Of a stretch of 64,000 nt of DNA, positions 4,498 to 52,286 are shown in pieces. Source of the stretch: Christiangramia forsetii KT0803 (lineage in GTDB: Bacteria > Bacteroidota > Bacteroidia > Flavobacteriales > Flavobacteriaceae); assembly GCF_000060345.1 (NCBI RefSeq), contig NC_008571.1, positions 3,290,501-3,354,500 of the forward strand, read 5' to 3'. How positions within the stretch are numbered: position 1 is the stretch's first letter; every line of letters begins with the position of its first letter. The translations under genes were made by a program, and so were the position numbers. Under the pieces are notes generated by a model. It saw nothing but the letters and a program-made list of their open reading frames with translations, was not told the origin of the DNA and ran no database searches.

Positions 4498-4788
4498 TTA
4501 TTCGTAAATTCCCAGTCTGTTTTTTAGACGAATATTGTCTTTTTGAAGTTGTTTTATCTGCCGAAGCAAGTGATCTATAGCCTCCAGTCCTTCCAAATTA
4601 ATGTCTAATTCACGATGTAAACGCATCATTTTTTCAAAATCTGCCAGGTGATCGCAATGTACATATTCAGTCTCCTCTATAATAACTATCTCTAAAATTC
4701 CACTCTCAGAAAGTGAGCTTACAAACTGGCGTTCTACTTTGTAGCGACTACAAATTTCTTCTGCAGGAATTAAGTCTTCTTTTTTCAT
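4498..4788 (-). CDS. cbpM: Chaperone modulator CbpM, MerR-like
   Basis: A 96-residue protein with a MerR-like N-terminal helix-turn-helix (E-E-I-C-S-R-Y-K-V-E at about 11-20). A helical segment D-I-N-L-E-G-L-E-A-I-D-H-L-L at about 61-74 and a short coiled coil end the protein. The family binds the J domain of CbpA and damps its co-chaperone activity. The start overlaps the cbpA stop by 4 bases, so the two are translationally coupled, which is the standard partner arrangement and the strongest evidence for this call. Confidence 0.85.
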   Translation of the reverse strand: MKKEDLIPAEEICSRYKVERQFVSSLSESGILEIVIIEETEYVHCDHLADFEKMMRLHRELDINLEGLEAIDHLLRQIKQLQKDNIRLKNRLGIYE

Positions 4789-19502: not shown

Positions 19503-21404
19503 TTGTTGAGAAGCCCCCAAAACTTAGTTCCCTGTGAAAGACATAATCAGAAATTCCTCTGGTTAATCATCTTTTTTATAAGTTTCAGTTTTCAAGCAAT
19601 GGCTCAGGAAAAGGAGCAAACCAAGGATAGTGCAACTATCTATAACAGAATTGAACGATACTCAGAAAAAAGAAAATTCACCAAAAAACTTCATAAATTA
19701 ATTTTCAGGTCAAATAAGAAAAAACCACCTAAAGTAGTACAAAAGAGCAAGAGAGACTACAAAAACCTGGAAGGAAAAGTAATTAGAAATATTGTTATCA
19801 ACACAAAGGATCCTTTTGGTTTTTCTTTTAAAGATTCTACTGAAACCGCAAATAGCTGGCTGGAAAAAACCGGGAATCAAGTTCATATAAAATCCAAAAA
19901 ATTTGCTATTCGAAATTTTCTACTCCTTGATGAAAATGAAACCCTGGATACACTTTTACTAGACGAATCTGCACGTTTACTACGTTCTCAAAAATATATA
20001 AGAGAAGTTGAAATTACCGCTCATCCCGTTAAAAAATCAGATTCGGTAGATGTTCGGGTAACCGTATTAGATTCCTGGAGTCTTAATCCTCAAGGAGCAT
20101 TCTCTACTTCAGAGAACAAACTTACTTTAAAAGAATATAATATAGTAGGTACAGGTCACCAGGTCAATTTTAGTTTTGCAAATAGATTAGATGATGGTAA
20201 GAATGCGTATTATGCTGAATATAGAATTCCCAATTTCAAAAATACTTTTATAAAAGCTGCAGTAAGATATAAAAGCAACTTTAATGAATTTTACAACAAA
20301 AGTGTATTTATAGAAAGAGAGTTCTATTCTCCTTTCACACGCTGGGCTGCCGGTATATATGTAGATGAGCAATACAGGGAAGAAGAACTTTTAGATCCCA
20401 AGCAGGAATATGTTGCCCAGAATTTCAAATACATATCCCAGGACTATTGGGTTGGTCACTCCTACCCCCTATTTAAAGGAAATTCTGAAAAAAAACGTAG
20501 CACTAATCTTATTACCAGCATTGGTTTTTTAGATGTGAATTATAAAGAATCGCCCAATGCGATTTATGATAGCATTAATTTTTTCGCTGACGAAACAAGC
20601 TACCTGGGAACTGTAGGCATTTCATCGAGGCAATTCGTTCAGGATAATTTTATTTTTAATGATGGTATCACGGAAGATGTCCCTGTAGGAAGAATTTATG
20701 CCCTAACAGGGGGATTTCAAAGTAAAAATCAGAATAGTAGATTGTATTTGGGCGCCAGAGCTTCTTTTGGAAATTATTTCAACTGGGGTTATATAAGTAG
20801 CAATTTTGAAATAGGAAGCTATTTTAATGGCTCAAAAACTGAACAAACCGCCTACTCTTTTCAGGCTAATTATTTTACAAACCTCATAGACCTTGGAGAA
20901 AGATGGAAAATGCGACAGTTTGTAAAACCACAATTCATTATAGGAGTTAATAGAAAGAATTCTATAGGTGACCGATTAAGTATAGACCAGAATAATCGAT
21001 TTAACGGCATTTATGGAAGTGATTACCGAAGAACTACAGGTGCTCGAATCGCTGGATTTAATAGTGATTTGACGGGAACCGAAAAATATGTACTGGAGTT
21101 ACAAACCCAGTTTTATGCTCCCTGGGAAATCCTGGGATTTCGGTTAAACCCATTTCTAAATTATACCGGTGCCGTCATAAAAGACACGAATCCTGGTAGT
21201 AATAATTTATTTTCGTCATTTGGTGTAGGCTTTATTATTAGAAATAATTATTTGGTATTTGATAATTTCCAATTGTCTTTTTCATTTTTCCCAGAAATTC
21301 CAGGACAGGGATTCAACCTTTTTAAAACAAATGCTTTTGAAACGGAGGATTTTGGATTTCAGGATTTACAGTTGGGAAAACCTAGAACTATTTTGTTCAA
21401 TTAA
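19503..21404 (+). CDS. Omp85/BamA-like outer membrane protein with POTRA region
   Basis: A 633-residue exported protein. The frame starts with TTG-TTG and no ATG fits, so the exact start is uncertain. Residues 16-36 form a signal-like hydrophobic segment ending in A-M-A-Q. A charged linker follows, then a POTRA-like region (about 90-190) with L-L-R-S-Q-K-Y-I-R-E-V-E-I and a D-S-V-D-V-R-V-T-V strand. The rest is a predicted beta-barrel full of alternating aromatic strands. It is shorter than BamA (about 800 residues) and shows one POTRA-like domain at most two. It may be an Omp85-superfamily protein in outer-membrane assembly or lipid transport; the partner is unknown. Confidence 0.7.
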   Translation: MLRSPQNLVPCERHNQKFLWLIIFFISFSFQAMAQEKEQTKDSATIYNRIERYSEKRKFTKKLHKLIFRSNKKKPPKVVQKSKRDYKNLEGKVIRNIVINTKDPFGFSFKDSTETANSWLEKTGNQVHIKSKKFAIRNFLLLDENETLDTLLLDESARLLRSQKYIREVEITAHPVKKSDSVDVRVTVLDSWSLNPQGAFSTSENKLTLKEYNIVGTGHQVNFSFANRLDDGKNAYYAEYRIPNFKNTFIKAAVRYKSNFNEFYNKSVFIEREFYSPFTRWAAGIYVDEQYREEELLDPKQEYVAQNFKYISQDYWVGHSYPLFKGNSEKKRSTNLITSIGFLDVNYKESPNAIYDSINFFADETSYLGTVGISSRQFVQDNFIFNDGITEDVPVGRIYALTGGFQSKNQNSRLYLGARASFGNYFNWGYISSNFEIGSYFNGSKTEQTAYSFQANYFTNLIDLGERWKMRQFVKPQFIIGVNRKNSIGDRLSIDQNNRFNGIYGSDYRRTTGARIAGFNSDLTGTEKYVLELQTQFYAPWEILGFRLNPFLNYTGAVIKDTNPGSNNLFSSFGVGFIIRNNYLVFDNFQLSFSFFPEIPGQGFNLFKTNAFETEDFGFQDLQLGKPRTILFN

Positions 21405-38163: not shown

Positions 38164-40392
38164 TTAAAACCAGAAGCCGAGACTAAAGAACCAGTAGCTT
38201 TCCTTTATTTCTGGTGAGTAGGTGTACTTCGCTTCCAATGGCCCCATAAAAGTATCAATTCCATAACCAAGAGCATAACCAGTAAAATCTGGTGTGCTAA
38301 TCCAGTTGCCCGATGTATAAAGCCTGTCTTCCACATTCGCAATATTCACTCCTGCGCTTATGTGGTTTTTCCGGAATATTTGATAATCCACTTCCAGCAA
38401 GGCTTTAATATAACTATCTCCAGATAAGCTTAAAAAATCATATCCGTAGAAGGGCTTTATATTATTAATAAAATCGTTCCCATAGCCACCTAAAAAGAAA
38501 TCCAGTACTTCAGTGCCATCATTCCCTATCTTAAAACCCGTTTCTGTAGAAATTCGAGTTGTAAACTTATTAAATGGAGTCACAGCATACCCAATAGCTC
38601 CTTTAGCAATGGAGAATTCAGCAAAATTATTATTGAAATCTGAAGAATATAAATAAAGATGAAAATCGCCGTTAAAGCTCAGTCCCTTTGTAGGAAAGTA
38701 TTTATTGTCATAGGAGTCGAATTTTAAATACCCAAAGACACTCCCATAATGACTATTATCAAAAATGAATTCATTATTAGTATTGCTCACATCGTTGAAA
38801 GTACGGCTGCTTAATTTCAAATACTTATGTTCCAGTCCCGCGCCTATAGAGAACACCTGCTGAAAAAGGGTCTCCACATAAAGCTGATTTGTAAAATCCT
38901 TAAAATCTACTTCTAGCTCTCTTATAGACTCAAGTTCGTTTGTCTCTTCTACCTCCCGAATCTTATTAAGATCTATATTTTTATCAAAGGTATTATAGCG
39001 GGAATTGATCCCGACACTCCAGTAAAAACCCTTATCCAGGTAGTAGTTGAAGTTATACCTCAAATTATCGCCTACAATAAAATCTATAGAAGCAACATCA
39101 TTGGAAAAAAGTAAACTCTTGCGGGTTAAATTTACCAGTGCACCACTTTTATACAGTTCATCATAATGCAAACCTAAACGCAAAAGCATTTTATTATCAC
39201 TTTCCTCAATTTGCATGGCCAGAAGATAATTTCCTTCATCATCTTCAGGAAGCAGTCGATAATTGATCCTTTCAAAATTTCCGGTAGCCGAAAGGTTATT
39301 GAGTCCTATACTTAGATCTTCAAAATTATAAGGTTCGTCATAATCTAGCTTCAATTTCCCCTGAACATATGCTCTGGGATAGGTATTATTACCTTCAAGA
39401 GTTAGAGCATTAATATTAAAAGCATCTATCTTCTTAATCTGCTTTCGTATATGCGTATCCTCACTTTTTTCAGAAAGCGATTTCAACTCTATAAGTTTTG
39501 TAAGTGCGGCTACCCTCCCTGAATCTATGATCGCATTTCCTTCGTCAAAAGACATGACAGAAAAAGGGCTTATATCCGGTTTTATATAAATATCGGTCAA
39601 TGGTATTTTATCCTTCATATCATTGATCGTTCTAAAATTGCTTATTTGGGTCATTATTTCAAAGACCCCTTTAAGCTTGTCCCTTTTTACGAGACTATCC
39701 TGTACATCTACGCCAATCACAATATCTGCTCCCCGTCTTCTCAATTCTTCCACAGGATAATTATTGGCTACCCCTCCATCGGTTAAAAGTTGATCATCTA
39801 TTTTCAGAGGACTTAAAATTGTTGGAATCGCTCCACTTGCGGAGATCGCTTTTGCCAGGGATCCCTTATCAAGAATGACCTGTTCCCCGGTTTCTACGTT
39901 TGCTGCGACACAAAAAAATGGAATTGGCAGCTTACTAAAATCATTTACATCACTAACATGAATAGTAAGCTGGGACATTAGATTATAAATATTTTGCCCC
40001 TTAAAAAGGCCTGTGGGAAACGAAATATCAAAATTATCAAAGGGTAGCGTAATGGCATATTTTTCAGAATCTTCCTTTTCATAAAAAGTCTTGGCCCGTC
40101 TGGGAAGATTATCCTGGATAAGGATATCAAAATTAGTGCGATCAAAAATGGAATCAAGCTGGTTTGCAGAATAACCAGATGCATACAAACCGCCAATAAT
40201 AGCCCCCATACTTGTTCCGCCTATATAATCAATTTTAATCCCCTCTTCTTCAAGAACCTTAAGAACACCAATATGCGCCAGGCCTTTTGCTCCACCACCA
40301 CTTAAAACCAAACCGATTTTAGGCTCAGATTTTTCCTGGCCAAAGCCAGCTAAAGTGAAAGTAAAGAATAAAAGGACTAAAAATTTTTGCAT
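38164..40392 (-). CDS. Patatin-like phospholipase fused to an outer-membrane barrel
   Basis: A 742-residue protein with a signal peptide ending F-G-Q (about residue 19). The patatin domain (about 25-310) has the oxyanion loop S-G-G-G-A-K-G (31-37), nucleophile Ser61 in G-G-T-S-M-G and the second dyad residue Asp205 in T-D-G-G. Next come a POTRA-like segment (about 330-400) and a 16-strand-type barrel that ends in L-G-F-W-F with terminal Phe. This order is that of type Vd autotransporters (PlpD-like). The lipase would face outwards or be released. Start abuts the uvrC stop, which makes a uvrC-lipase transcript. Confidence 0.9.
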   Translation of the reverse strand: MQKFLVLLFFTFTLAGFGQEKSEPKIGLVLSGGGAKGLAHIGVLKVLEEEGIKIDYIGGTSMGAIIGGLYASGYSANQLDSIFDRTNFDILIQDNLPRRAKTFYEKEDSEKYAITLPFDNFDISFPTGLFKGQNIYNLMSQLTIHVSDVNDFSKLPIPFFCVAANVETGEQVILDKGSLAKAISASGAIPTILSPLKIDDQLLTDGGVANNYPVEELRRRGADIVIGVDVQDSLVKRDKLKGVFEIMTQISNFRTINDMKDKIPLTDIYIKPDISPFSVMSFDEGNAIIDSGRVAALTKLIELKSLSEKSEDTHIRKQIKKIDAFNINALTLEGNNTYPRAYVQGKLKLDYDEPYNFEDLSIGLNNLSATGNFERINYRLLPEDDEGNYLLAMQIEESDNKMLLRLGLHYDELYKSGALVNLTRKSLLFSNDVASIDFIVGDNLRYNFNYYLDKGFYWSVGINSRYNTFDKNIDLNKIREVEETNELESIRELEVDFKDFTNQLYVETLFQQVFSIGAGLEHKYLKLSSRTFNDVSNTNNEFIFDNSHYGSVFGYLKFDSYDNKYFPTKGLSFNGDFHLYLYSSDFNNNFAEFSIAKGAIGYAVTPFNKFTTRISTETGFKIGNDGTEVLDFFLGGYGNDFINNIKPFYGYDFLSLSGDSYIKALLEVDYQIFRKNHISAGVNIANVEDRLYTSGNWISTPDFTGYALGYGIDTFMGPLEAKYTYSPEIKESYWFFSLGFWF

Positions 40393-47143: not shown

Positions 47144-47755
47144 TTATTCAGCTTTATCCTCCTTAGGAAACGCTCTTTTATTGAATACCAAAAGCATGGC
47201 AACACCCACACTTATGGCAGAATCTGCTATATTAAATACAGGTTCAAAAAAAGTAAAGTATTCGCCACCCCAGATAGGGATCCACTCAGGCAAATACCCT
47301 TTCCATAAAGGGAAATAAAGCATATCTACTACCTTTCCATGGAAAAGAGAACTATATCCTCCGGCTTCCGGTAAAAAGCTTGCTACATGGCCGTAGCTAT
47401 CATCAAAGATAATTCCGTAGAAAACCGAATCTATGATATTCCCGAAAGCGCCGGCAAAAATTAAAGCAATAGAGAAAATTAGAATTTTAGATCCATTATT
47501 TCTAACGGCATCCCATAGCCAGTAACCTATTCCAACAATAGCAGCGAGACGGAAAAGTGTTAAGGCAAGCTTTCCATATTCTCCGGGAATCTTTGTACCC
47601 CAGGCCATACCTTCATTTTCAACAAAAAGTATACTGAACCAGTCAAAAACCTCTACTTCGTCTCCAAGAGCAAAATGAGTTTTGATATATAGTTTAGAGA
47701 TCTGATCTATAAGAAGTATCAGTATAATGAAGAATCCGGCTTTTTTAAGGGACAT
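47144..47755 (-). CDS. lspA: Lipoprotein signal peptidase (signal peptidase II)
   Basis: A 203-residue inner-membrane aspartyl protease that cleaves signal peptides before the lipidated cysteine. Four helices are visible, including the opening A-G-F-F-I-I-L-I-L-L-I-D-Q-I-S-K. Catalytic Asp are in G-N-I-I-D-S-V-F-Y-G (about 110) and N-I-A-D-S-A-I-S-V-G (about 178). The loop between them is long, which is normal in Bacteroidota. It sits downstream of the DUF4097-like gene and acts on the many lipoproteins encoded here, e.g. 491, 21488, 32295 and 60682. Confidence 0.95.
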   Translation of the reverse strand: MSLKKAGFFIILILLIDQISKLYIKTHFALGDEVEVFDWFSILFVENEGMAWGTKIPGEYGKLALTLFRLAAIVGIGYWLWDAVRNNGSKILIFSIALIFAGAFGNIIDSVFYGIIFDDSYGHVASFLPEAGGYSSLFHGKVVDMLYFPLWKGYLPEWIPIWGGEYFTFFEPVFNIADSAISVGVAMLLVFNKRAFPKEDKAE

Positions 47756-47798: not shown

Positions 47799-48434
47799 TT
47801 ATTTTTTACGCACCTTAATATCACCGTCTATACTTGTAAGCCTTATTGGATTTCGGCCGGGCATAAAACCTGGGATTTGGACATCTCCATTTCTTGAATC
47901 TGCCTCAATGAGCCCCGATGAAGTTTCCACTAAAATATTACCGGAATACGTATTGATAACAGCAGTTCCTGAAAAATCCAGCAGTTTGCAATAACCTTGT
48001 TTTAGACTGGCATATATAGATTTAAAATTACCTTTTCCCTGTAAAGAAGCAATATTAGATTGAATTGAAACGGCTAATCCCTCCGGAATTTCCATTTCGA
48101 TTTCCAGCGAAAAAATCTTGTGAGCACTTAATTTGTCGAATCCACCGGTTAATTTTTCCGGGTACTTAGTGGTAATGACTAATTCTTCACCATTTATTAA
48201 AGACTCAAGAATAATGTCATCATAATACTCCCCTTCAGAATGGGTCTTTATCCTAATCTCAGAATTTTTCGAAGTAGAAATATTAAGGAGATAGACCTCA
48301 TTGGTATTAATCTGAATACTTTTAATACTTTGCGCATCAATAATTTCGCGCGTATCCCTTTGGGCGAAGCTAAGTGCGCCAATCATTAAAGTACATAGTA
48401 CTATTAAAAATCTCTTCTTCATTAAATTCTTCAA
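47799..48434 (-). CDS. Exported beta-helix protein, DUF4097-like
   Basis: A 211-residue protein with a signal peptide ending L-S-F-A-Q (about residue 25). A second in-frame Met at residue 5 could be the true start. The mature part consists of repeated strands such as G-N-I-L-V-E-T-S-S-G-L-I-E-A and G-D-V-Q-I-P-G, typical of DUF4097/DUF2807-like right-handed beta solenoids. Role unknown. The tail is basic (V-R-K-K). It is downstream of dksA-like, with a terminator between them, and 43 bases upstream of lspA. Confidence 0.75.
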   Translation of the reverse strand: MKNLMKKRFLIVLCTLMIGALSFAQRDTREIIDAQSIKSIQINTNEVYLLNISTSKNSEIRIKTHSEGEYYDDIILESLINGEELVITTKYPEKLTGGFDKLSAHKIFSLEIEMEIPEGLAVSIQSNIASLQGKGNFKSIYASLKQGYCKLLDFSGTAVINTYSGNILVETSSGLIEADSRNGDVQIPGFMPGRNPIRLTSIDGDIKVRKK

Positions 48435-48494: not shown

Positions 48495-48878
48495 CTAACG
48501 TTGCATATTCTTTGCTTCGATACTAAGAGTCGCATGAGGAACCAGCAACAATCTCTCTTTTGCGATTAGCTTTCCAGTAACTCTACAAATACCATAAGTC
48601 TTATTCTCAATACGCATCAAAGCATTCTTAAGATCTCTTATGAATTTCTCCTGGCGGATCGCTAATTGAGAATTTGCTTCTTTACTCATAGTTTCACTTC
48701 CTTCTTCAAACGCTTTAAAGGTTGGAGAAGTGTCATCGGTACCATTATTACCGTCGTTCTTGTAAGCATTTTGATAATTCTCAAGTTGCTGCTGAGCCTT
48801 CTCAATCTTACTTTTAATTAGAGCCTTAAACTCTGCCAAATCGGCGTCGCTGTGACGTTCTTTTACTTCTGTAGACAT
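48495..48878 (-). CDS. TraR/DksA-family protein with degenerate zinc finger
   Basis: A 127-residue helical protein of the DksA/TraR type. An N-terminal coiled-coil region is seen (about 14-40 and 60-92), and the C-terminal finger keeps the frame Y-G-I-C-R-V-T-G-K-L-I (about 95-105). Only Cys98 remains; the positions where Cys101 and the C-terminal pair are expected hold Thr101, Ser119 and Ala122, so zinc is not bound in the usual way. The family binds the RNA polymerase secondary channel, sometimes with ppGpp. It lies 3 bases after ileS on the same strand, ahead of lspA, an order common in this phylum in my experience. Confidence 0.88.
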   Translation of the reverse strand: MSTEVKERHSDADLAEFKALIKSKIEKAQQQLENYQNAYKNDGNNGTDDTSPTFKAFEEGSETMSKEANSQLAIRQEKFIRDLKNALMRIENKTYGICRVTGKLIAKERLLLVPHATLSIEAKNMQR

Positions 48879-48881
48879 GGT

Positions 48882-51800
48882 TTAATGTTTTTTTATAAAC
48901 AATTTAGTGGCAACATCATCAAATTCAACCTCAGCACCATCATTTACCACCTCTGCAAATTCGAGAGTTGCAGTTAATGTTTCGTTCTTAATATAACTTA
49001 TATTATCGTTAACGGCATCCTCGATAATACCGTCCTTTTGTAGGGTTACATCAATCGTATCAGTCACTTCGTAGCCTGAATCCTTTCGGAGGTTCTGGAT
49101 CCTGTTTACCAACTCCCTGGCAACACCTTCCTTCTTCAACTCCGGACTAATACTAACGTCCAGGGCTACTGTTAAGCTGCCACTACTGGCAACTAACCAT
49201 CCTTCAATATCCTGTGAACTTATCTCAACTTCATCTAAAGACAAATTAACCATTTTTTCGTTAATTTCTACTGCAATCTCCCCTTCACTTTCAATTTTTG
49301 AAATATCTTCAGCGCTAAAATTATTTATCTTACTGATAATCAGTTTTATATACTTGCCAAATCTTGGGCCAAGAACTCTAAAATTAGGCTTTATCTGTTT
49401 TACCAAAAGACCAGAAGCATCATCAATTAGCTCAATATCCTTTACGTTTACTTCAGATTTTATTAAGTCTTCAACTGCCTCGATCTCTTTCTTTTGAGCT
49501 TCATCAAGTACTGGTATCATTACTCTTTGGAGCGGTTGACGAACTTTTATCATTTCCTTCTTCCGTAGAGATAAAACTAAAGAAGAGATCGTTTGCGCCT
49601 TTTCCATTTTACGCTCTAAAGATTTATCAACAAATCCTGGTTCATAAGCCGGAAAATCAGCAATATGAACAGATTCTGACTTGTCTTTACCTGTTACCAC
49701 GTTTAGATCTTTAAAGAGTCTATCCATAAAGAACGGCGCTACGGGAGCCCCAAGCTTTGCCACAGTTTCCAGACAGGTATACAGGGTTTGATAAGCTGAA
49801 ATCTTATCCTGCTCATAATCGCCTTTCCAAAATCTTCTTCTGCTTAACCTCACAAACCAGTTACTCAAGTTCTCCTGAACAAATTCTGAAATTGCCCGGG
49901 TCGCCTTTGTTGGTTCATAATCTGCGTAGAATTTATCTACTCTTTCAATAAGCGTATGCAATTCTGAAAGTATCCATCGGTCTATTTCAGGTCTTTTTTC
50001 TAAAGCAACATCATCTTCAGCATAACTGAATTCATCGATGTTCGCATAAAGGATAAAGAATGAATATGTGTTATATAAGGTTCCGAAGAATTTACGCTGA
50101 ACTTCTCCTATCCCTTCGATATCGAATTTTAGATTATCCCACGGATTGGCATTGGCAATCATGTACCAACGGGTGGCATCAGGTCCATAAACCGAAATAG
50201 TTTCAAAAGGATCTGCCGCATTTCCTAATCGCTTGGACATTTTCTGCCCGTTCTTATCTAACACAAGACCGTTAGAAACCACATTTTTATAGGCAACATC
50301 GTCAAAGATCATGGTTGCGATCGCATGAAGGGTATAAAACCAACCACGGGTTTGATCTACGCCTTCAGCAATAAAATCGGCTTTACGCCATTTATCTTCT
50401 ACTTTTTCTTTATTCTCGAAGGGATAATGCCATTGTGAATAAGGCATAGAACCAGAATCAAACCACACATCTATAAGGTCTGCTTCACGTTTCATGGGTT
50501 TACCAGAATCAGAAACCAGTGTAATCGTATCTACAACATTCTTGTGAAGATCTACTTTATCGTAGTTCTCTTCACTCATATCTCCGGGCTCAAAACCTTC
50601 GAAAATATCCTTTTCCAGAACTCCGGCTTCTACAGCTTTCGCCATTTCTTCCTTGAGTTGAGCTATGGAGCCCATAACCTTCACTTCGGTTCCATCCTCG
50701 GTTCTCCAGATAGGAAGCGGAATTCCCCAATATCTACTACGGCTTAAGTTCCAGTCATTGGCATTAGCAAGCCAGTTTCCAAAACGTCCTTCTCCGGTAG
50801 ATTTAGGTTTCCAGTTGATCGTCTGGTTAAGCTCATGCATTCTGTCTTTGAATTCAGTCACTTTTATAAACCAGGAATCAAGAGGATAATATAATATTGG
50901 TTTATCTGTTCTCCAGCAATTTGGGTAGCTGTGAACATACTTTTCTACTTTAAATGCCCTATTCTCTTCTTTTAACTTGATCGCCAGCTCAACATCCACA
51001 GATTTTTCCGGAGCCTGACCTTCGTCATAATATTCATTCTTTACATACTTCCCGGCCAATTCTCCCATTTCTGGTCTAAATTTTCCCTGAAGATCTACAA
51101 GCGGAACCAGATTTCCATTTTGATCTTTAACAAGCAACGGTGGAACTTCAGGAGTCGCCTGTTTAGCCACCAGGGCATCATCTGCACCAAATGTAGGTGA
51201 AGTGTGTACAATCCCGGTACCATCTTCTATAGTTACAAAATCCCCTGAAATTATTCTGAAGGCATTTTCGGGATTGTCGTTAGGCTGGGCATATGGCAGT
51301 AATTGCTCATATTTGATCCCAACAAGATCTTTACCTGAAAAACTTTCTTCGGAAATGAAATAAGGAATTTTCTTGTCTCCTTCTGAATAAGATTTCAAAT
51401 CCTCATCTGACGAAACTTTTTTGAATTTTTTGTCAAACTGCTTTTCAGCAAGCTCCTTCGCCACAATAATGGTAATTGGCTCGAAGGTATATTGGTTATA
51501 AGTTTTTACACTTACATATTGAATTTTTGGTCCAACTGTTAGGGCTGTGTTCGAAGGTAGTGTCCATGGAGTAGTAGTCCAAGCAATAAAAAATAAATTT
51601 TCAGTATTCTTTAAAAACTCCGGCAGTGTTTCCTCCTTCGCTTTAAACATAGCGGTAACCGTAGTATCGGTCACATCCTGATAAGTCCCCGGTTGATTCA
51701 ACTCATGAGAACTTAATCCGGTTCCGGCTTTTGGTGAATAAGGCTGAATAGTGTAGCCTTTGTAAATAAGATCCTTATTATAGATCTCGGAAAGCAGCCA

Positions 51801-52286
51801 CCATACTGTTTCCATATATTTTGACTTGTAGGTGACATATGGATCTTCCATATCTACCCAGTAGCCCATCTTCTTAGTAAGATCGTTCCAAACATCAGTA
51901 TAACGCATCACCGCATTCTTACAGGCTTCGTTATACTTTTCAATGCTTATTTTAGTCCCTATATCCTCTTTGGTAATTCCAAGCTCTTTCTCTACTCCCA
52001 ACTCCACAGGAAGACCGTGAGTATCCCATCCGGCCTTACGCTTTACCTGGAAACCTTTTTGAGTTTTGTACCGGCAAAAAATATCTTTAATAGCACGTGC
52101 CATCACATGGTGAATTCCCGGTAAACCATTTGCTGAAGGTGGACCTTCAAAAAATATGAAAGGCTCCTTCCCTTCACGGGTAGACACGCTCTTTTCGAAA
52201 ATATCATTTTCTTCCCAATAATTGAGGATTTCTTCTGCCACCTTAGGCAGGTCCAGACCTTTGTATTCAGGGAACTTTTTGCTCAT
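48882..52286 (-). CDS. ileS: Isoleucyl-tRNA synthetase with swapped HIGH motif
   Basis: A 1134-residue class I synthetase that attaches isoleucine to tRNA. The signature in this protein is G-I-H-H at residues 57-60 (within P-P-S-A-N-G-L-P-G-I-H-H) where the standard is HxGH. The second signature is K-M-S-K-R (about residue 691). The rest, including W-T-T-T-P-W-T-L-P-S-N-T editing domain and D-V-W-F-D-S-G-S, is normal for type 2 (eukaryote-like) IleRS, which is naturally mupirocin tolerant. Of this type, the GxHH form has been reported to be hyper-resistant to mupirocin. Starts 48882-52286 with ATG; 3 bases ahead of the DksA-like gene. Confidence 0.96.
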   Translation of the reverse strand: MSKKFPEYKGLDLPKVAEEILNYWEENDIFEKSVSTREGKEPFIFFEGPPSANGLPGIHHVMARAIKDIFCRYKTQKGFQVKRKAGWDTHGLPVELGVEKELGITKEDIGTKISIEKYNEACKNAVMRYTDVWNDLTKKMGYWVDMEDPYVTYKSKYMETVWWLLSEIYNKDLIYKGYTIQPYSPKAGTGLSSHELNQPGTYQDVTDTTVTAMFKAKEETLPEFLKNTENLFFIAWTTTPWTLPSNTALTVGPKIQYVSVKTYNQYTFEPITIIVAKELAEKQFDKKFKKVSSDEDLKSYSEGDKKIPYFISEESFSGKDLVGIKYEQLLPYAQPNDNPENAFRIISGDFVTIEDGTGIVHTSPTFGADDALVAKQATPEVPPLLVKDQNGNLVPLVDLQGKFRPEMGELAGKYVKNEYYDEGQAPEKSVDVELAIKLKEENRAFKVEKYVHSYPNCWRTDKPILYYPLDSWFIKVTEFKDRMHELNQTINWKPKSTGEGRFGNWLANANDWNLSRSRYWGIPLPIWRTEDGTEVKVMGSIAQLKEEMAKAVEAGVLEKDIFEGFEPGDMSEENYDKVDLHKNVVDTITLVSDSGKPMKREADLIDVWFDSGSMPYSQWHYPFENKEKVEDKWRKADFIAEGVDQTRGWFYTLHAIATMIFDDVAYKNVVSNGLVLDKNGQKMSKRLGNAADPFETISVYGPDATRWYMIANANPWDNLKFDIEGIGEVQRKFFGTLYNTYSFFILYANIDEFSYAEDDVALEKRPEIDRWILSELHTLIERVDKFYADYEPTKATRAISEFVQENLSNWFVRLSRRRFWKGDYEQDKISAYQTLYTCLETVAKLGAPVAPFFMDRLFKDLNVVTGKDKSESVHIADFPAYEPGFVDKSLERKMEKAQTISSLVLSLRKKEMIKVRQPLQRVMIPVLDEAQKKEIEAVEDLIKSEVNVKDIELIDDASGLLVKQIKPNFRVLGPRFGKYIKLIISKINNFSAEDISKIESEGEIAVEINEKMVNLSLDEVEISSQDIEGWLVASSGSLTVALDVSISPELKKEGVARELVNRIQNLRKDSGYEVTDTIDVTLQKDGIIEDAVNDNISYIKNETLTATLEFAEVVNDGAEVEFDDVATKLFIKKH

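Follow-up and report, generated by a model that had tools for sequence, protein, structure and literature searches.

The window examined here, a stretch of 64,000 nucleotides from the Christiangramia forsetii KT0803 genome, carries on its minus strand an ileS gene (48882..52286) that encodes a type 2 isoleucyl-tRNA synthetase (IleRS) of 1134 aa. The product scores 975 bits against the ileS equivalog model TIGR00392, above the curated cut-off of 621.4, and thus belongs to the IleRS family. Its class I signature is altered in that residues 57–60, encoded by 52107..52118 on the minus strand, read GIHH, preceded by EGPPSANGLP and followed by VMARAIKD. A preliminary description of this DNA had reported the motif with these flanks and had argued that it is not the product of a frameshift. 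Translation and alignment bear this out, as the 1134-aa frame is intact and GIHH aligns without gaps in HMMER alignments. The window ileS is an unremarkable housekeeping gene whose product falls into an already described subgroup of type 2 enzymes, and the altered signature is shared by every genome that we sampled across the phylum.

In order to locate the motif, residues 40–180 were aligned with IleRS sequences of solved structure. GIHH lies ungapped opposite the HVGH of wild type Priestia megaterium IleRS2 (8c8u, 8c8v) and of Thermus thermophilus IleRS (1ile), and opposite the GVHH of an engineered hyper-resistant P. megaterium mutant (8c8w). When the first 200 residues were scanned for HxG[HN], no such pattern turned up apart from GIHH itself. 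The motif has the composition that defines the G/AXHH subgroup (G or A, a hydrophobic residue, H and H at the signature position), and a helix begins at residue 58 in the predicted structure. The only other class I synthetase frame read in the genome, an 888-aa frame with PPPNVTG context that was taken as valyl-tRNA synthetase, has an ordinary HMGH. GIHH is neither a chance occurrence nor a sequencing slip, because G-[IVM]-H-H is read at this position in all of 148 genomes from across the phylum (83 genera and 33 families, this genome included; the phylum, Bacteroidota, was inferred from named relatives). The second class I signature, KMSKR, is found at its expected place (residues 682–686; 50229..50243, minus strand). 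The editing-domain motif GTGIVHTSPTFGADD (residues 356–370; 51177..51221, minus strand) is presumably the editing site. His59, the third residue of GIHH, is the counterpart of Gly56 in P. megaterium IleRS2 (numbering of PMC10485003).

Sequence, domain content and predicted fold all assign the enzyme to type 2. With phmmer it scores 763 bits to wild type P. megaterium IleRS2, 770 bits to the GVHH mutant of that enzyme and 673 bits to T. thermophilus IleRS, as against 286–299 bits to the type 1 enzymes of Staphylococcus aureus and P. megaterium. The first Foldseek match of the predicted structure is the GVHH mutant 8c8w (E 1.8e-94), in a near tie with 8c8v and 8c9d, while the best type 1 match reaches E 5.6e-56; the structural alignment to 8c8v covers model residues 5–1134 and chain residues 1–1031. 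According to Pfam the C-terminal part consists of Anticodon_1 and DUF5915 (the latter at residues 939–1133; 48888..49472, minus strand), and no Pfam zinc domain was found in the protein at E 0.001, whereas type 1 enzymes end in a zinc-binding C-terminus. The type 2 sequence markers given in PMC4861432 are also present, namely HYPFE at residues 620–624 (50415..50429, minus strand), which marks eukaryote-like and type 2 enzymes, and Ser51 (52134..52136, minus strand) instead of Tyr at the position of Escherichia coli IleRS Tyr59. The equivalence of Ser51 with Tyr59 is our own reading, made because both stand in a GPPx context; eukaryotic and eukaryote-like enzymes have Phe or Thr there (PMC4861432). 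HYPFE occurs in exact form in 124 of the 148 phylum genomes, with 24 lacking it. Together with the account of the subgroup in PMC10485003, these results uphold the earlier assignment to type 2 and to its GXHH subgroup.

The subgroup, its resistance and the structural basis of that resistance are already published. Brkic et al. 2023 described the G/AXHH enzymes of IleRS2, with 86 G/AXHH against 77 HXGH sequences (PMC10485003). In the same work the natural ALHH enzyme of Deinococcus radiodurans had an inhibition constant (Ki) for mupirocin of 6.6 mM, which fell to 8.1 uM when ALHH was changed to HVGH, and introduction of GVHH raised the Ki from 0.20 to 35 uM in T. thermophilus IleRS and from 1.08 to 460 uM in P. 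megaterium IleRS2. GXHH rendered type 1 enzymes inactive (PMC10485003). In the authors' view the tip of helix alpha-1 is shifted in type 2 enzymes, which allows the third His to replace the first in function, and the third His, when modelled, clashes with mupirocin (PMC10485003). The Streptomyces griseus IleRS, with a motif described as non-canonical (PMC10485003), has a Ki of 10 mM (PMC4861432).

By homology with these published GXHH enzymes (PMC10485003), strong mupirocin resistance of the window IleRS is a well supported prediction, and the hyper-resistance expected earlier at the enzyme level retains its footing. Most probably, His59 would take over the role of the first signature His, as in other type 2 GXHH enzymes, and its position in the pocket would clash with mupirocin; given this clash, Ki values from high micromolar up to millimolar would be expected. 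Literature on mupirocin sensitivity in the phylum is sparse. The marine Flavobacteriaceae species Maribacter halichondriae is reported to withstand a mupirocin disc of 200 units (PMC10942906), a result for which permeability or exclusion, or efflux, could alone be explanation enough, and PMC10835994 and PMC5714932 hold genome predictions only. We also considered Leu674 as a coupled partner of the swap. It corresponds to position 582 of P. megaterium IleRS2, a His that is reoriented when mupirocin binds (PMC10485003). The idea was rejected because T. thermophilus IleRS, which has HVGH, also carries Leu at this position, and because many GVHH enzymes of the phylum carry His there (GHILD).

The protein search returned an IleRS match in each of the 148 phylum genomes. 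The signature reads GIHH in 107 of these, GVHH in 40 and GMHH in one, and HXGH in none. A second set, of named loci, comprises the best 80 of 581 confirmed matches and therefore represents close relatives and not a survey of bacteria; its query consisted of ten sequences of the phylum cut after the motif (patterns GWDTHGLP and [LI][AV]WTTTPW). All 78 readable loci have GXHH (75 GIHH, 3 GVHH), the stretches of the remaining two (L204 and L236) starting past the motif. The genera represented include Mesonia, Tenacibaculum, Polaribacter, Bacteroides, Dysgonomonas, Alistipes, Pedobacter, Hymenobacter and Chryseobacterium, and record titles point to rectum or gut, rumen compartments, root, soil, freshwater and sea. 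GXHH also spans two sub-types. In the 37 genomes of the same class the GPPSANG-type context, with Ser at the E. coli Tyr59 position, is universal (37/37) and KMSKR nearly so (35/37), while all 111 phylum genomes outside the class have GPPT, with KMSKS in 100, KMSKT in 8, KMSKR in 1 and the second signature not read in 2. The sequences in an alignment of 25 relatives were one codon short at the C-terminus, which leaves the motif unaffected.

Two loci are unusual in other respects. L133 (genome G067, C5) is the only ileS of a draft genome and contains one in-frame TAG, which may be a draft error, recent damage or recoding. In L229, from a Chitinophagaceae metagenome-assembled genome, the ileS frame that starts at 1249 stops after 937 aa, compared with 1100–1207 aa in 75 other frames, and similarity to IleRS continues to base 4626, beyond the end of the frame.

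The presence of the motif in all 148 genomes and in named relatives of varied habitats indicates that it is older than the niche of this organism. We favor, with high confidence, a joint explanation in which the window gene is a housekeeping type 2 IleRS of the published subgroup and GXHH would be an old trait of the phylum and not a recent local adaptation. The scale of the original claim changes accordingly, from an oddity of one marine strain to a trait of every phylum genome sampled, and it follows that mupirocin should inhibit IleRS poorly across the sample. The searched literature yielded no statement that GXHH is fixed throughout the phylum, although the tree in PMC10485003 (Figure 2) or its supplements may show it; words beginning with 'Bacteroid' or 'Flavobact' are absent from the main text of that paper. 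What is new here is that all 148 sampled phylum genomes carry the motif, a pattern that the published tree may already display.

Why the motif has persisted is a separate matter. GXHH could be an active-site state that was inherited from an ancestor and retained chiefly on account of catalysis, discrimination or loss of tRNA-dependent pre-transfer editing, with resistance as a by-product. Its occurrence in every sampled genome, whatever habitat the titles suggest, speaks for this account, and we regard it as possible though improbable. The catalytic data offer it little, as introducing GVHH into two natural HXGH enzymes reduced kcat and increased KM up to about tenfold, whereas the reverse swap in D. 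radiodurans changed kcat no more than twofold and reduced both KM values (PMC10485003, Table 1), so that no catalytic gain from GXHH is visible. Selection by antibiotic is moreover the explanation favored in PMC10485003. As to editing, the S. griseus enzyme, the one non-canonical case seen to have been tested, also counts in favor of this account, but a single enzyme does not make a correlation. The yeast enzyme has a canonical signature motif. A more specific version, to which we give slightly less credence still, is that the canonical HIGH of IleRS had disappeared by the time of the common ancestor of the phylum and did not return afterwards, the new state being kept by enzyme chemistry (for example proofreading without tRNA-dependent pre-transfer editing) and not by mupirocin, so that hyper-resistance would be a by-product. 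If the motif is indeed ancestral and never reverted, the phylum provides many natural enzymes in which the persistence of GXHH could be tested.

The preliminary description had, by implication, linked the motif to mupirocin made by marine competitors. In its favor, marine Pseudoalteromonas produce thiomarinols, which are pseudomonic-acid hybrids (PMC3069032), and the closest named relative among the matches listed, from which records of this genome itself were possibly excluded, is Mesonia aquimarina at 79%, which places the window in or near Flavobacteriaceae. Recent selection of the swap in this organism is nevertheless very unlikely, and as an account of its origin this reading is already contradicted by the 148 genomes with the motif (111 of them outside the class), by the named Bacteroides, Dysgonomonas, Alistipes, Pedobacter and Hymenobacter loci that share it, and by a DksA-like downstream neighbor of ileS, found in 56 of the 80 named loci. 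Only a role in maintenance could be revived. With the motif in every sampled phylum genome and in gut, root, soil and freshwater relatives, the motif gives no grounds for inferring selection by the competitors of a single habitat, and the marine link is not supported.

That the window enzyme is a non-functional or specialized second copy beside a canonical IleRS elsewhere can practically be dismissed, as no point in its favor was found, the 1134-aa frame is intact, none of the eight further matches in the genome (3,798,465 bases in a single contig) reaches the ileS cut-off, which this gene alone exceeds, and each of the 148 phylum genomes likewise has one ileS match at E 1e-100 or better among five candidates scored per genome.

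Directly downstream of ileS lies a gene for a DksA/TraR-type zinc-finger protein (48495..48878, minus strand; Pfam), followed further on by lspA for signal peptidase II (47144..47755, minus strand; Pfam). Between the two is a 211-aa frame with a TTG start (47799–48434, minus strand) that has no Pfam match at E 0.001 and may not be a gene. Upstream, Pfam identified a TonB-dependent receptor, recO and glutamate dehydrogenase. The genes around ileS are thus of housekeeping type. An lspA homologue is present in 47 of the 80 named loci, whose flanks often end before lspA would be reached; 12 of these loci are shorter than 5200 bases, so that some are too short to show downstream neighbors. Conservation does not extend to the TonB-dependent receptor upstream, which has a match in 1 of 80. 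The gene order downstream of ileS fits vertical inheritance. Nothing resembling a resistance island was seen among the 27 open reading frames (ileS included) run on Pfam, out of 56 of at least 100 aa, and no RNA element was found in the window at Rfam gathering scores. PADLOC, run on ten other open reading frames, gave weak matches for two of them, a helicase and an aminotransferase, which by Pfam are an Mfd-like protein (TRCF) and an aminotransferase. Elsewhere in the window there is a patatin-like phospholipase fused to an OMP85-type barrel (38164–40392, minus strand) and, after the Mfd-like gene, a 633-aa frame with a TTG start and no Pfam match at E 0.001 (19503–21404, plus strand).

Compared with known systems, the window enzyme is most like the G/AXHH subgroup of IleRS2 (D. 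radiodurans ALHH, S. griseus; PMC10485003), with which it shares the swap of the first and third signature positions and type 2 architecture. It differs from these named examples in belonging to another phylum, in having GIHH and not ALHH, and in the KMSKR and Ser51 of its class. The closest solved structures by both sequence and Foldseek are those of P. megaterium IleRS2 (8c8u, 8c8v, 8c8w), but identity is only ∼37%, the wild type P. megaterium enzyme has the canonical HVGH, and that organism also has an IleRS1 (PMC10485003). The acquired resistant synthetases MupA and MupB (NF000257, NF000258) are type 2 relatives as well, matching the window enzyme at 725 and 738 bits. These scores are far under the 1900-bit cut-off and place it outside both families, and unlike an acquired extra gene the window ileS is the sole chromosomal copy. 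With type 1 IleRS (S. aureus 1ffy, P. megaterium 8c9e) it has the class I fold and the reaction in common, whereas type 1 enzymes are mupirocin-sensitive and carry HXGH throughout the survey of PMC10485003.
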